Below are positions 1,669-13,138 of a stretch of DNA of 32,903 bases, one piece after another. The position numbers and the translations under genes are program-made. Origin of the DNA: Patescibacteria group bacterium (GTDB lineage Bacteria; Patescibacteriota; Patescibacteriia; 2-12-FULL-60-25); NCBI GenBank assembly GCA_029210915.1, contig JARGGJ010000018.1:1-32903 (forward strand), given 5' to 3'. Numbering within the stretch: the stretch's first letter is position 1; the number at the start of each line of letters is the position of its first letter. The notes below the pieces were generated by a model. The model was not told the origin of the DNA. It saw only the letters and a program-made list of their open reading frames with translations, and did no database searches.

Positions 1669-1932
1669 TTAGGTTGAAGCAGTTTTTATTAGGATGAGTT
1701 TTTCTTTGCGAGATAGCTTTTTGATCACTGCTTCGCGTTTTTTAGCTGAAGATTCTGTGTGCCCATCTTCTGTCCAGAGGATTTTGACGGGGAGGCGGCA
1801 TCTTGTGTATTTGGAGGCTTTGCCTTGGTTGTGGGTTTTTAGGCGATTGTCGAGATCTGTGGTAATTCCCGTATATAGAGTATTGTCGGCACAACCGAGG
1901 ATATAAATATGCCAATTAGCTGATTTTTTCAT
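1669..1932 (-). CDS. GIY-YIG nuclease-family protein (UPF0213/YhbQ-like)
   Basis: An 87-aa single-domain GIY-YIG protein. Visible motifs are HIYIL (8-12) for the first Tyr, TLYTG (18-22) for the second, and TDLDNRLKTHNQGK (25-38) with the conserved Arg30 and the HNxGK signature of YhbQ-like proteins. YTRCRLPV and the Lys-rich C-terminus also fit. I chose the ATG at 1932 because homology begins there; the frame continues to 1992. No clear ribosome site is seen. It lies about 130 nt from a broken tRNA-Met piece, just as the second GIY-YIG gene (7488-7742) abuts a broken tRNA-Ser. Such proteins are presumed structure-specific DNA nucleases; the actual substrate is unknown. Confidence 0.85.
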   Translation of the reverse strand: MKKSANWHIYILGCADNTLYTGITTDLDNRLKTHNQGKASKYTRCRLPVKILWTEDGHTESSAKKREAVIKKLSRKEKLILIKTAST

Positions 1933-2062: not shown

Positions 2063-2118
2063 GTGGCGAGGTAGCTCCACCCTTCGCGTAAAGCTTCGGG
2101 TGGCAAGCAGTTGGTTAG
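2063..2118 (+). pseudogene. 5' fragment of tRNA-Met split by a 31-nt hairpin
   Basis: Positions 2063-2077 equal 2164-2178, the flank and first 13 nt of the intact tRNA-Met. Positions 2109-2118 (AGTTGGTTAG) equal 2179-2188, the D loop. Between them sits a 31-nt insert (2078-2108) with stem CCACCC/GGGTGG (2077-2082, 2098-2103). The insertion point is between tRNA positions 13 and 14, where the D stem meets the D loop. No 3' half follows, so this is a relic. Confidence 0.85.
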
Positions 2119-2242: not shown

Positions 2243-2365
2243 CGTAAAAAGCCGCTTAGAATAATAGGCGGCTTTTTACGTGCCCCGTGATTAATGAAGC
2301 AATAGAATAATTACCGAAATTAATTTTACGGGGCAAAGCATCTATAAGTATCGGCTTCACGTGGT
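2241..2365 (+). repeat. tRNA-trailing structured unit, copy 1
   Basis: It begins with a 15-bp perfect hairpin, CACGTAAAAAGCCGC with its complement, starting in the tRNA CCA. A second stem pairs CCCCGT with ACGGGG. It ends with CGGCTTCACGTGG, which can pair back with the CCACGT at the tRNA end and so close the whole unit. This copy lacks the hairpin insertion found in copies 2 and 3 after GTGCCCCG. The leading hairpin with its T run probably also terminates the tRNA transcript. Confidence 0.75.
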
Positions 2366-2380
2366 ACAGCCCCTCCAAAT

Positions 2381-2528
2381 GCCGCTTAGAATAATAGGCG
2401 GCTTTTTACGTGCCCCGCGTAAAGTGACTTCGTCACTACGCGGCGCTGCCGTGATTATGAGTGAACGTGGATCTGATGGATATCAGATTTACATGGCTTA
2501 GTATTTATAGTACCGGCTTCACGTGGCA
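2381..2528 (+). repeat. tRNA-trailing structured unit, copy 2
   Basis: Same start (GCCGCTTAGAATAATAGGCG) and same end (CCGGCTTCACGTGGCAC) as copy 1. Relative to copy 1 it carries a 34-nt palindromic insert at 2418-2451 between GCCCCG and TGATTA, plus a palindrome at 2471-2488 (ATCTGAT-GGAT-ATCAGAT). Confidence 0.8.
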
Positions 2529-2537
2529 CTGCCCTAT

Positions 2538-3504: not shown

Positions 3505-3580
3505 CGCGGGGTAGAGCAGTTGGCAGCTCGCCAGGCCCATAACCTGGAGGTCGTAGGTTCAAGTCCTACCCCCGCAACCA
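3505..3580 (+). tRNA. Initiator tRNA-fMet(CAT) with C33
   Basis: Acceptor CGCGGGG (3505-3511) faces CCCCGCA (3570-3576), leaving the C1-A72 mismatch that marks bacterial initiators. A11-T24 in the D stem also fits an initiator. CCA is encoded. Two features are odd. The anticodon loop reads CCCATAA, so position 33 is C instead of the near-universal U. The stem is CCAGG/CCTGG, so base pair 29-41 is A-T and the usual run of three G-C pairs is reduced to two. Confidence 0.93.
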
Positions 3581-3737
3581 CGTAAAAAGCCGCTTAGAAT
3601 AATAGGCGGCTTTTTACGTGCCTCGCGTAAAGTGACTTCGTCACCACGCGACGCTGCCGTGATTATGAATGAACGTGGATCTGATGGATATCAGATTTAC
3701 GAGGCAAAGCATCTATAAGTACCGGCTTCACGTGGCA
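3577..3737 (+). repeat. tRNA-trailing structured unit, copy 3
   Basis: The same unit as behind tRNA-Met, now behind the initiator tRNA. It has the leading 15-bp hairpin, a 34-nt palindromic insert at 3626-3659 almost identical to that of copy 2, the ATCTGAT-GGAT-ATCAGAT palindrome (3679-3696), and the closing CCGGCTTCACGTGGCAC. Confidence 0.8.
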
Positions 3738-3812
3738 CGCCTTGTAAAAAGCCACATAGAATTTGTGGTTTTTTAGTTACAATAAATTTCAGTGGTGGCT
3801 TCACGTGGCGCC
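3738..3812 (+). repeat. tRNA-trailing unit, short copy 4, with terminator
   Basis: A hairpin AAAAAGCCACA...TGTGGTTTTTT (3746-3775) acts as a likely terminator. The copy ends with GTGGCTTCACGTGGCGCC, the same closing motif as the other units. Confidence 0.6.
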
Positions 3813-7384: not shown

Positions 7385-7474
7385 TGGCGGAGAGGTAGGG
7401 ATTCGAACCCTAGGTACCCGTAAAGGCACACCGCATTTCGAGTGCGGCCCATTCGACCACTCTGGCACCTCTCC
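7385..7474 (-). tRNA. tRNA-Ser(CGA), intact
   Basis: Class II tRNA. Acceptor GGAGAGG pairs with CCTCTCC, discriminator G, and CCA is encoded (7385-7387). The anticodon arm is CCGCA-CTCGAAA-TGCGG with anticodon CGA, reading UCG. It has a long variable arm and T arm TAGGG-TTCGAAT-CCCTA. A second, interrupted copy lies at 7749-7914. Confidence 0.95.
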
Positions 7475-7487
7475 GAAAACTTTAAAC

Positions 7488-7742
7488 TCAAGTTTGATTG
7501 ATAATATCTCTGTATTGTTGTTTTAGCAACCTTCTACCTTCGGTGGTTTTAAGAAATTTTTCACGCCTCTGCACATCCGTTTTTAAAGTATAGGCCTCAA
7601 AACCAATCAATACTGTAGGACGATGATTGCAAGTTGATGCGACTTTGCCGTTATTATGTTCCCCAATTCTTCTTTGAATATCACCAGTCGAACCTTTGTA
7701 AATGTTGCCATTATTGAGTTTTAGAAAGTAAACGTAATACAT
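7488..7742 (-). CDS. GIY-YIG nuclease-family protein
   Basis: 84 aa, a single GIY-YIG domain. YYVYFLK (2-8) and GNIYKGST (12-19) give the two tyrosine motifs, followed by Arg24-Arg25 and EHNNGK (28-33), then RREKFLKT. This is the common small orphan type. It is placed exactly between an intact tRNA-Ser gene and an interrupted tRNA-Ser copy, all on the same strand. The interrupted copy ends 7 nt before its ATG, and the intact tRNA begins 13 nt after its stop. This is compatible with insertion of a GIY-YIG plus tRNA segment at the 3' end of the older tRNA gene. Activity on tRNA genes is inference only. Confidence 0.85.
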   Translation of the reverse strand: MYYVYFLKLNNGNIYKGSTGDIQRRIGEHNNGKVASTCNHRPTVLIGFEAYTLKTDVQRREKFLKTTEGRRLLKQQYRDIINQT

Positions 7743-7748
7743 AGTTAT

Positions 7749-7914
7749 TAGGGATTCGTCCGGTCAGCCGACCGGACACCCAATCGGATGATTGGGCGAA
7801 CCCTAGGTACCCGTAAAGGCACACCGCATTTCGCCGAGTCATCCGACTCGGTGCAAGTGCGGCCCATTCGACCACTGCATCAGGTCGAATGACCTGGCTG
7901 GCACCTCTCCGAAT
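7749..7914 (-). pseudogene. tRNA-Ser(CGA) copy with palindromes in the D, anticodon and T loops
   Basis: Removing three inserts gives 82 nt with no difference from the intact tRNA-Ser at 7385-7474, but the 3' acceptor strand and CCA are missing. Insert 1 (7759-7798, 40 nt, T loop) holds two palindromes, CCGGTC-AGCC-GACCGG and CCCAATC-GGAT-GATTGGG. Insert 2 (7834-7855, 22 nt, between T33 and the anticodon) holds CCGAGTC-ATCC-GACTCGG. Insert 3 (7877-7897, 21 nt, between positions 13 and 14) holds CAGGTC-GAAT-GACCTG. All stems of the tRNA stay uninterrupted. It cannot make a normal tRNA. Confidence 0.9.
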
Positions 7915-7992
7915 TGCTTAATGCTAACGATTTTTTAAGTAAAAGTCAACTATTCGCAAATCTGTTTATTTACGCTATGCTGTAGATTCGAT

Positions 7993-11768: not shown

Positions 11769-12635
11769 TTACAGATACCAGCGCCATCCCTTTGGGGACT
11801 TGGGGAACTCGAAGTTCCTGACTTGGCGCCGGTTGCGCTCGGGGCGGGGTTCGGCCTCCATGCTATACGGGATAGCCTGGACGGTGATACCGCAACCCGA
11901 TCCGTCGGGGGGACACGTTTCTGTGTCCACTACGAACATAGCTTTGTAGCCGGGCTTGATTAAGGTGACCCGGCTACCTGTCTTTGTTAGTAGTTCCACA
12001 AACGGACACGTTTCCGGTCGTGGAGGCGGGGGCAAGTGAGGCGAGTTCGACTCCATGCATTGGCCAACGAGTGGCTGCATGGTTGTGTAACCGGTCGTGC
12101 TCACCCACATGAATCGAGAGCCTCGGTTCTCGAACTGGAACATGTAGCCCGCGTTCCACGTTGCGTAGGCCGGACGATACGTCACGGTCCGCGCGTTGCG
12201 GAGTACCACACCCGGAGTACGCGACGGACCCATCGGCACACTGAGTGTGACGGGTTCGGGCTTGCGCTCGGGGGCGGGTTGTCTTTGTGCTTCACGCTCT
12301 GGCGCAGGCCGAGACGCCGGTTGACGAGCCGCGGGTTGCGGCTCACGCTTGGCGGAAGGTTGAGCCACCTGAGCCGGAGGCTCGGGTTTGGCTGGGGGTT
12401 GCACTGCCGGAGCCGGAGGCTCGGGCTTGGCAACTTCTTCGCTCTCGGCGACCTTGGCCTCGGCTTTTGCCTCGACCTTGGGAGCCGGCTCGGGAGTTGC
12501 CTCCTCGGAGCTTGCGACTCGCGTGGGAATATCCCACGCGCCCTTGGCGTCCAAGTCATTGGCGCTCTTGGCGCTGTTCTTTTGACAGCCAGTGATCAGA
12601 AGAGCGACAAAGAGAAAAATGAAATACTTTTTCAT
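11769..12635 (-). CDS. Lipoprotein with Pro/Ala/Glu linker and C-terminal globular domain
   Basis: 288 aa, no family recognised. The lipobox LITGC puts the lipidated Cys at 17. Residues about 45-130 are a low-complexity linker of PEPPA, KPEPPAQV and RQPAPERKPEP units, typical of a spacer through a cell envelope. The last 150 residues look folded, with aromatic and beta-type segments and four cysteines in two pairs (QCME, ETCPF, ETCPP, SGCGI). A GGAG ribosome site lies 8 nt before the ATG. It is the last gene of the GC-rich block and is 20 nt downstream of the next lipoprotein gene, so the two are probably cotranscribed. Confidence 0.8.
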   Translation of the reverse strand: MKKYFIFLFVALLITGCQKNSAKSANDLDAKGAWDIPTRVASSEEATPEPAPKVEAKAEAKVAESEEVAKPEPPAPAVQPPAKPEPPAQVAQPSAKREPQPAARQPASRPAPEREAQRQPAPERKPEPVTLSVPMGPSRTPGVVLRNARTVTYRPAYATWNAGYMFQFENRGSRFMWVSTTGYTTMQPLVGQCMESNSPHLPPPPRPETCPFVELLTKTGSRVTLIKPGYKAMFVVDTETCPPDGSGCGITVQAIPYSMEAEPRPERNRRQVRNFEFPKSPKGWRWYL

Positions 12636-12655
12636 GATTTAATCTCCAGTGCCGC

Positions 12656-13138
12656 TCAGCGGCAGTTGTTTTCGTTTTGGCACTCGACCAGGTCTTGGAC
12701 CGTTGCCGCCGTGTTTATCAGCAGATCGTGATCTGCGTTGTACTCGTTTGCGGTTCCGTTAGGATCCACAACCAGCGGAACGACACCATCCCTCGTGGGA
12801 CAGATTTGGATCGTGCGTCCATTCCCATCCTCGCCCACGGTGCAATTTACATGCGCCTTTGGAGGTGAGAGATAGATGGACGAACCCATACTGCCGGGCG
12901 TTACTCCTGTTGAATCCACAAACCCTCGAGACATGTAGCGTTGCTGTGCCTCTGGTTTTACTATTCTGGTTTCGACCGTCGAGGTTTGCCCACGGCTGTC
13001 CGTGGTCTCCTCGATTGTATGCTTGTGATATGGTGATTCATCATGCAGATTGTAGCTGCCGCCTGCGGACATACAGCCGCTCAAAGAAACAAGAAACAAG
13101 AAACAAGAAACAAACAGTGTAGCCGTTCGGGTATTCAT
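12656..13138 (-). CDS. Lipoprotein, 160 aa, signal peptide written in a heptamer repeat
   Basis: The frame is open to 13402, but AAAGGAG directly before the ATG at 13138 fixes the start. The lipobox LSGC gives lipidated Cys22. The hydrophobic core VSCFLFLVSL is encoded by about four tandem GTTTCTT heptamers. The mature part is polar, with no recognised domain; its Cys residues (NCTV, QICPTRDG, VECQNENNC) could form disulfides. It is followed after 20 nt by another lipoprotein gene. A strong promoter lies at 13245-13273 and a leader hairpin just upstream of the ribosome site. Confidence 0.82.
   Translation of the reverse strand: MNTRTATLFVSCFLFLVSLSGCMSAGGSYNLHDESPYHKHTIEETTDSRGQTSTVETRIVKPEAQQRYMSRGFVDSTGVTPGSMGSSIYLSPPKAHVNCTVGEDGNGRTIQICPTRDGVVPLVVDPNGTANEYNADHDLLINTAATVQDLVECQNENNCR

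Follow-up and report, generated by a model that had tools for sequence, protein, structure and literature searches.

A displaced, hairpin-bearing tRNA-Ser copy beside a GIY-YIG nuclease gene in a Patescibacteria genome, the probable trace of a small homing-type element

The window, that is, the whole 32,903-nt stretch of DNA analyzed here, carries on its minus strand an intact tRNA-Ser(CGA) gene preceded by an interrupted copy of its own 5′ part. The 0.26 kb separating the two consists of one ORF, which encodes an 84-aa GIY-YIG nuclease. The features of the locus are:

7921..7949, minus strand: ancestral tRNA promoter (TTGACT-17-TAGCAT; promoter scan), kept upstream of the undisturbed tRNA in genome G002
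7749..7910, minus strand: displaced tRNA-Ser(CGA) copy, tRNA positions 1-79 with three inserts, 3′ acceptor strand absent
7877..7897, minus strand: D-loop insert, hairpin CAGGTC-ATTC-GACCTG, between positions 13 and 14
7834..7855, minus strand: anticodon-loop insert, TGCA plus hairpin CCGAGTC-GGAT-GACTCGG, between positions 34 and 35 (sequence numbering), i.e. after T33
7759..7798, minus strand: T-loop insert, double hairpin CCCAATC-ATCC-GATTGGG plus TCCGGTC-GGCT-GACCGGA
7488..7742, minus strand: GIY-YIG nuclease ORF, 84 aa, single domain (Pfam PF01541, E 1.2e-12)
7501..7529, minus strand: promoter-like site at the 3′ end of the GIY-YIG ORF (promoter scan, consensus match only)
7385..7474, minus strand: intact tRNA-Ser(CGA) (ARAGORN; Rfam RF00005, 56.1 bits)

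Read from 7910 to 7749 on the minus strand, the displaced copy consists of tRNA-Ser positions 1-13 followed by 21 nt, 14-34 followed by 22 nt, 35-69 followed by 40 nt, and finally 70-79. The original prediction had described a tRNA-Ser copy without point changes, with three inserts carrying four palindromes in its D, anticodon and T loops and with a common apex TC-NNNN-GA. Each of these points was confirmed: the tRNA letters show zero substitutions relative to the gene at 7385-7474, the insert positions are as described, and all four palindromes combine this apex with stems of 6-8 bp. The T-loop double hairpin is flanked by CG dinucleotides (TTCG...CGAA); inspection by eye suggested a 2-nt duplication of CG at such double hairpins in several loci, where the CG may belong to the stem. 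The assertion that every tRNA stem is intact was wrong for the acceptor stem, which is unable to form because the copy ends just past the T stem, at position 79. Folding had been proposed with the prediction as a check. Each hairpin folds as a single DNA strand far better than shuffled sequences (z -3.3 to -6.1). The minimum-energy fold of the whole window copy in free-energy folding is not a cloverleaf.

The nuclease ORF, absent from the original prediction, retains the catalytic residues of its family: Y5, G17, R25, H29 and E61 are invariant across 22 relatives, and Y15 is present in at least 90%. An empty version of the site was found in G002, a genome of the same genus, where the syntenic locus reads P0003, tRNA-Ser(CGA), P0002 in the same order, without GIY-YIG gene or copy. 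The sequence flanking the displaced copy can be aligned to the promoter and 5′ flank of G002 (TTGACT...TAGCAT...GCAATTC). The tRNA-Ser(CGA) gene lies on the contig beside the P0002 homologue in 7/8 other genus members, and no P0001 relative was found at that locus in these seven. Occupied and empty versions of the same site are both seen, in a comparison at species level (G002 versus the window).

Relative to the empty locus, the GIY-YIG gene and a fresh copy of tRNA positions 1-79 have been added behind position 79. Upstream of them stand the original promoter and the original positions 1-79, and the new intact tRNA is completed by the original 3′ end. Because the ancestral promoter and leader lie directly upstream of the displaced copy, we take this copy to be the original 5′ part, still where it used to be, and the gene at 7385..7474 to be the regenerated, functional one. 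The ancestral promoter appears now to drive the displaced copy, and either this promoter or the promoter-like site (7529-7501) could serve to read the intact tRNA-Ser. The whole insert measures ~0.4-0.5 kb with the GIY-YIG gene as its only ORF, on which grounds a tRNA-site integrative element with a tyrosine integrase was rejected. A group I or group II intron was also rejected, since all Rfam matches in the window are tRNAs and 13 GIY-YIG loci lacking a tRNA gave no intron match.

The original prediction treated the locus as one freak tRNA and did not include its recurrence at other tRNA genes of the same genome; the locus is instead one member of a widespread element family. At tRNA-Ser(TGA), a displaced 5′ part with same-apex hairpins, a GIY-YIG ORF and the intact tRNA follow in the same order, which is also found at tRNA-Arg(GCG), where a palindrome replaces the anticodon arm. 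In a tRNA-gene scan of this genome, displaced hairpin-bearing pieces, some without a GIY-YIG gene, adjoined Met, Trp, Arg-GCG, Arg-CCG, three Ser, Phe, Thr-GGT, Ala-GGC, Pro-GGG and Lys genes. Twelve PF01541 genes are present, 11 of them near a tRNA gene (chance about 4% each). The one near tRNA-Met (window 1699-1917) belongs to a low-scoring YhbQ-like group on the opposite strand and was left out of the family. Upstream of the intact tRNA-Met at 2166-2242, at a site without a clade GIY-YIG gene, lies a further relic:

2065..2118, plus strand: tRNA-Met relic, positions 1-23, with a 31-nt hairpin insert after position 13 (2078-2108)

Hairpins occupy the same position, after 13, in Phe and Ala relics of this genome. 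A near-identical stretch, comprising a duplicated terminator and a palindrome block (CGTAAAAAGCCGCTTAGAATAATAGGCGGCTTTTTACGTGCC...CACGTGGCA), follows both tRNA-Met genes (window 2243-2535 and 3578-3745). At tRNA-Lys-TTT (L021, G000:C47), two tandem 3′ tRNA-Lys relics, each with terminator-like palindromes, lie past the intact gene, and no GIY-YIG gene was seen beside them. The G+C content of the window is mostly 0.40-0.52 and rises to 0.59 within 12001-13000.

In related genomes, where the original prediction had proposed to look for tRNA copies with loop inserts, 81 displaced copies, mostly insert-bearing, were collected from many genomes. In the 5′ type of element, the old 5′ tRNA part is followed by the GIY-YIG gene and the intact tRNA, the latter usually <40 nt past the ORF. 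In the 3′ type, the intact tRNA and its terminator are followed by the GIY-YIG gene and the old 3′ part. Both types recur at many tRNA isotypes. At L132 and L144, the old tRNA is divided precisely between positions 17 and 18, with 1-17 on one side of the intact copy and the GIY-YIG gene and 18-77 on the other, and we read the two pieces as one old gene cut in two. The source genome is a draft of 49 contigs, and repeats near tRNAs can misassemble; nevertheless, dozens of genomes show this arrangement, in some cases on long contigs (1.5 Mb in G015, 368 kb in L248), which leaves an assembly artefact a negligible probability.

Tandem units were found at L132 (two GIY-YIG units), L120 and L076, where the duplication includes the terminator. 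Such loci would fit an alternative in which nuclease breaks and imprecise repair tandemly duplicate the tRNA gene, the hairpins being fold-back repair scars, with no homing to other genomes. Tandem units that take in flanking terminators are in line with this, as is the amplification of tRNA segments driven by SegB (PMC13096335), and all stems differ, as those of fresh fold-back products would. Against it stands the distribution of the nucleases and hairpin types across genomes.

A profile from the tRNA-linked GIY-YIG group was run against 41 genomes from the taxonomic family and 380 from the phylum. Its scores part a high-scoring clade from the remaining GIY-YIGs, and matches at E 1e-19 occur in 194/380 phylum genomes, about half of those sampled. 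GIY-YIG genes of the clade lie ≤500 nt from a tRNA gene in 94/108 cases (92 on the same strand), compared with 6/40 for low-scoring GIY-YIGs. As the profile was built mainly from tRNA-linked members, the fairer comparison is that outside the window's genus, where 72/85 clade genes and 4/26 low-scoring genes are near a tRNA (Fisher p 1.3e-10). The proteins group by tRNA isotype across genomes (55 label changes versus 100.3 shuffled, 0/200), revealing site-specific lineages common to several genomes. For tRNA-His, the GIY-YIG DNA is 85.5% identical between two species and their L14 gene 77.0%, a single case that strong purifying selection could also explain. Isotype-specific clades spanning distant genomes and apex classes common to several genera (described below) are unexpected of scars formed de novo, and the greater closeness of the tRNA-His element between species, compared with a ribosomal protein gene, may likewise speak against such scars. 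We therefore consider duplication with repair scars unlikely.

Several of the best relatives of the clade stem from Patescibacteria records, and contigs binned as Bacteroidota and Chloroflexi show this anatomy too, the taxon assignments being those of the metagenome-bin records. On the 368 kb contig L248, binned as Chitinophagaceae, an intact tRNA-Met is followed by a GIY-YIG gene and a displaced 3′ part with the hairpin TCCGCCGAAAGGCGGA, with a duplicated terminator. In L246 (binned as Chloroflexi), TCCCGACTCGTCGGGA stands in place of the anticodon arm of a displaced tRNA-Val, and L245 is a relative in a contig binned as Bacteroidia. In a database search with a clade query, no relatives from viral contigs, phages or plasmids were matched. 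A clade GIY-YIG gene was also found in the loop of a 23S rRNA helix (L126 1440-1775, G035), inside an inverted repeat of about 20 bp; this insertion resembles an intervening sequence with a nuclease gene.

The hairpin inserts are placed non-randomly. Among 56 clean inserts, which are partly related and do not represent 56 independent events, 31 fall in loops, 15 at helix edges and 10 inside predicted stems, compared with 21.3 expected in stems (0/2000 draws that low). Eight of the 10 in-stem inserts lie at a helix end, within its final one or two pairs; the other two are weakly folded and non-palindromic. Inserts at random places, stems included, had been named as the outcome that would speak against the original prediction; the relatives show avoidance of stems instead. 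Its suggestion of a process adding hairpins to single-stranded loops came close to these wider data, the 46/56 inserts outside stems being divided between loops and helix edges. Nested hairpins, one within the loop of another, occur in displaced copies of L191, L154 and L142.

The apex of the hairpins follows the nuclease clade. TC-NNNN-GA occurs with Ser/Lys/Arg-TCT, GC-NNNN-GC with Ser-GCT/Asp, GCC-NNN-GGC with Pro and Gln, TCGCGA with Trp, and palindromes like CGATGNNCATCG with Arg/Ala. Apex classes co-segregate with GIY-YIG clades both for hand labels, which were assigned after the tree was seen (9 changes versus 20.2 shuffled, 0/200), and for automatic labels based on closing dinucleotide and loop length (18 versus 26.0, 0/200). 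The stem sequences vary while the apex is kept; since perfect pairing was a search criterion, compensatory stem change is no independent result. Because the apex follows the nuclease clade while the stems vary, we regard the hairpins as part of the element. Stems differ within one copy while the intervening tRNA letters are unchanged, so the hairpins did not diverge in place and must, as judged from the sequences, have arrived different or been made different. The loops of double hairpins are exact reverse complements in 5/12 pairs (permutation P 0.01), which is no more than suggestive of a kissing-loop interaction.

The core of the tRNA hairpins was found at 24 places genome-wide versus 3 for the reversed control, many of the others belonging to a separate REP-like repeat that is dispersed in the genome and has GTCATNCGAC as its core. 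At L235 376-1014 (G000:C26) lies an ORF carrying MPNHIHG, a motif of REP-associated transposases, and two CCGGTCATCCGACCGG hairpins precede it. Movement of REPs is generally attributed to RAYT transposases, and the presence of these palindromes and of this ORF would be compatible with a decaying tRNA pseudogene hit by unrelated mobile palindromes of REP or MITE type. Such palindromes would not be expected to be restricted to loops or to have an apex tied to the GIY-YIG clade, and decay is at odds with the few substitutions in the tRNA parts. The tRNA hairpins are not dispersed near-identical copies; they have just a 10-nt core in common with the REP-like repeats, in other contexts, and REP/RAYT palindromes were rejected for this reason. 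Plain pseudogene decay is rejected because of the recurrence and loop restriction of the inserts, and a pseudogene struck by unrelated palindromes is very improbable.

Across the displaced copies, 84/3577 aligned nt of tRNA segments are changed and 42/79 copies have no change. This conservation, the respect of inserts for helices, the coevolution of apex and nuclease, and the predicted position of the 5′-type copy, by its layout, as leader of the GIY-YIG mRNA would also suit a functional structured RNA, for example an extended-loop tRNA mimic acting as a decoy, or an RNA restraining the nuclease as in type III toxin-antitoxin systems. However, the copies are truncated at different points, often without the anticodon stem or half of the acceptor stem, those of the 3′ type lie downstream of the GIY-YIG gene, and the window copy does not adopt a cloverleaf in free-energy folding. 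The proposal, made with the original prediction, of an RNA kept for a tRNA-like fold is weakened in the same way, as the copies are cut short at the junction of nuclease-gene insertion, and we judge a function of this kind quite unlikely.

We consider it probable (about 0.7) that the displaced copy is the 5′ part of a tRNA-Ser(CGA) gene left by a very small selfish homing-type element that splits its target and regrows an intact tRNA. This reading is based on the insertion into an empty locus, the conserved nuclease residues, the isotype-specific lineages and the association of nuclease and hairpin. It also draws on the second same-apex element at tRNA-Ser(TGA), the avoidance of stems by inserts, the split tRNA of L132/L144, the terminator duplication of L076, the linkage of clade GIY-YIGs to tRNAs, the same anatomy in Chitinophagaceae and Chloroflexi bins, and the cutting within tRNA genes by SegB. 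In the proposed pathway, the GIY-YIG nuclease would cleave within or close to a loop of the tRNA gene, and a chromosome that bears the element would act as repair template, so that the element is copied in, as in homing, with regeneration of an intact tRNA allowing the host to survive. The most likely role of the hairpins would be to tag the displaced copy where the cut was made and to inactivate it; in the form of folded DNA or RNA, they may also serve as nuclease substrates.

Several observations count against a homing element. Displaced copies without a GIY-YIG gene are common (Thr, Arg-CCG, Phe, Ala-GGC), and 14/108 clade GIY-YIGs have no nearby tRNA. The copy boundary and the hairpin are 5-10 nt apart, which means that the cut may lie elsewhere than the hairpin. 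To either side of the insert, the regenerated tRNA has exactly the sequence of the displaced copy, which makes its protection from the nuclease hard to account for; no recoding of the regenerated tRNA was apparent, tRNA-Trp and tRNA-Pro looking normal in element-bearing genomes. A broader proposal, which we hold to be possible though short of probable, is that these elements form a distinct class of bacterial mobile element, in which single-domain GIY-YIGs recognize a hairpin apex in folded ssDNA or RNA and insert their gene and cognate hairpins into loops of structured RNAs, with the intact target regenerated, making them a natural home-and-rescue drive on essential tRNA genes.

The homing-type reading has several implications. 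Displaced halves go unnoticed because tRNA scanners report the intact copy only. The system is similar to engineered home-and-rescue gene drives, with the difference that its targets are essential tRNA genes. It would supply nuclease-hairpin pairs whose apex specificity is testable in vitro, connect tRNA genes with the GIY-YIG insertions of CPR rRNA that have lacked an explanation, and offer a testable mechanism for the landing of hairpins in loops of structured RNA genes. The identity of the regenerated tRNA with the displaced copy around the insert, together with the link between apex and clade, makes the hairpins worth direct tests.

In searches of an open-access paper library, no description was found of tRNA-linked GIY-YIG genes with hairpins in bacterial chromosomes. 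We know of no nuclease partner for the mitochondrial hairpin elements of sponges (RHEs). Like these RHEs and bacterial REPs, the present hairpins are short, apparently mobile, and single or double; in RHEs, stems are conserved and loops vary, whereas here the apex is kept and the stems vary (PMC2800124). A survey of CPR rRNA reported GIY-YIG insertions unlike introns, and also insertions at the top or base of stem-loops; it considered GIY-YIG to be rare and not involved in homing, and mentions neither tRNA nor hairpins (PMC11270868). The present clade shares with it the CPR bacteria and has a 23S hairpin-loop member (L126).

The closest parallel in anatomy is with fungal mitochondrial mORFs, mobile endonuclease ORFs that bring a second 3′ end to the gene they target (Allomyces atp6; Glomus atp6, atp9, cox2, nad3; PMC3630166). 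As here, an endonuclease gene, in one case a GIY-YIG, lies in an essential gene, a duplicated target part restores the gene, and the displaced native end lies beyond. The mORFs described there reside in mitochondrial protein genes and their duplicated part is foreign and diverged (64-81% identity), whereas in the present elements it is nearly identical and bacterial tRNA genes are targeted, in 5′ and 3′ versions; the displaced part of mORFs is not known to carry palindromes. The T-even phage enzyme SegB is a homing endonuclease of the GIY-YIG type; its cutting site within tRNA genes is RAWTSGAAC, a motif that fits the T loop when read on the complementary strand (PMC13096335). Both systems have GIY-YIG genes beside tRNAs, and cutting by SegB at this T-loop-like motif drives duplication of tRNA segments; unlike the present nucleases, SegB is phage-borne, and hairpins are nowhere mentioned in its paper. 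By analogy with these systems, the elements are best read as tRNA-targeting homing elements that would duplicate their target, carry cognate hairpins and work like fungal mORFs and SegB.
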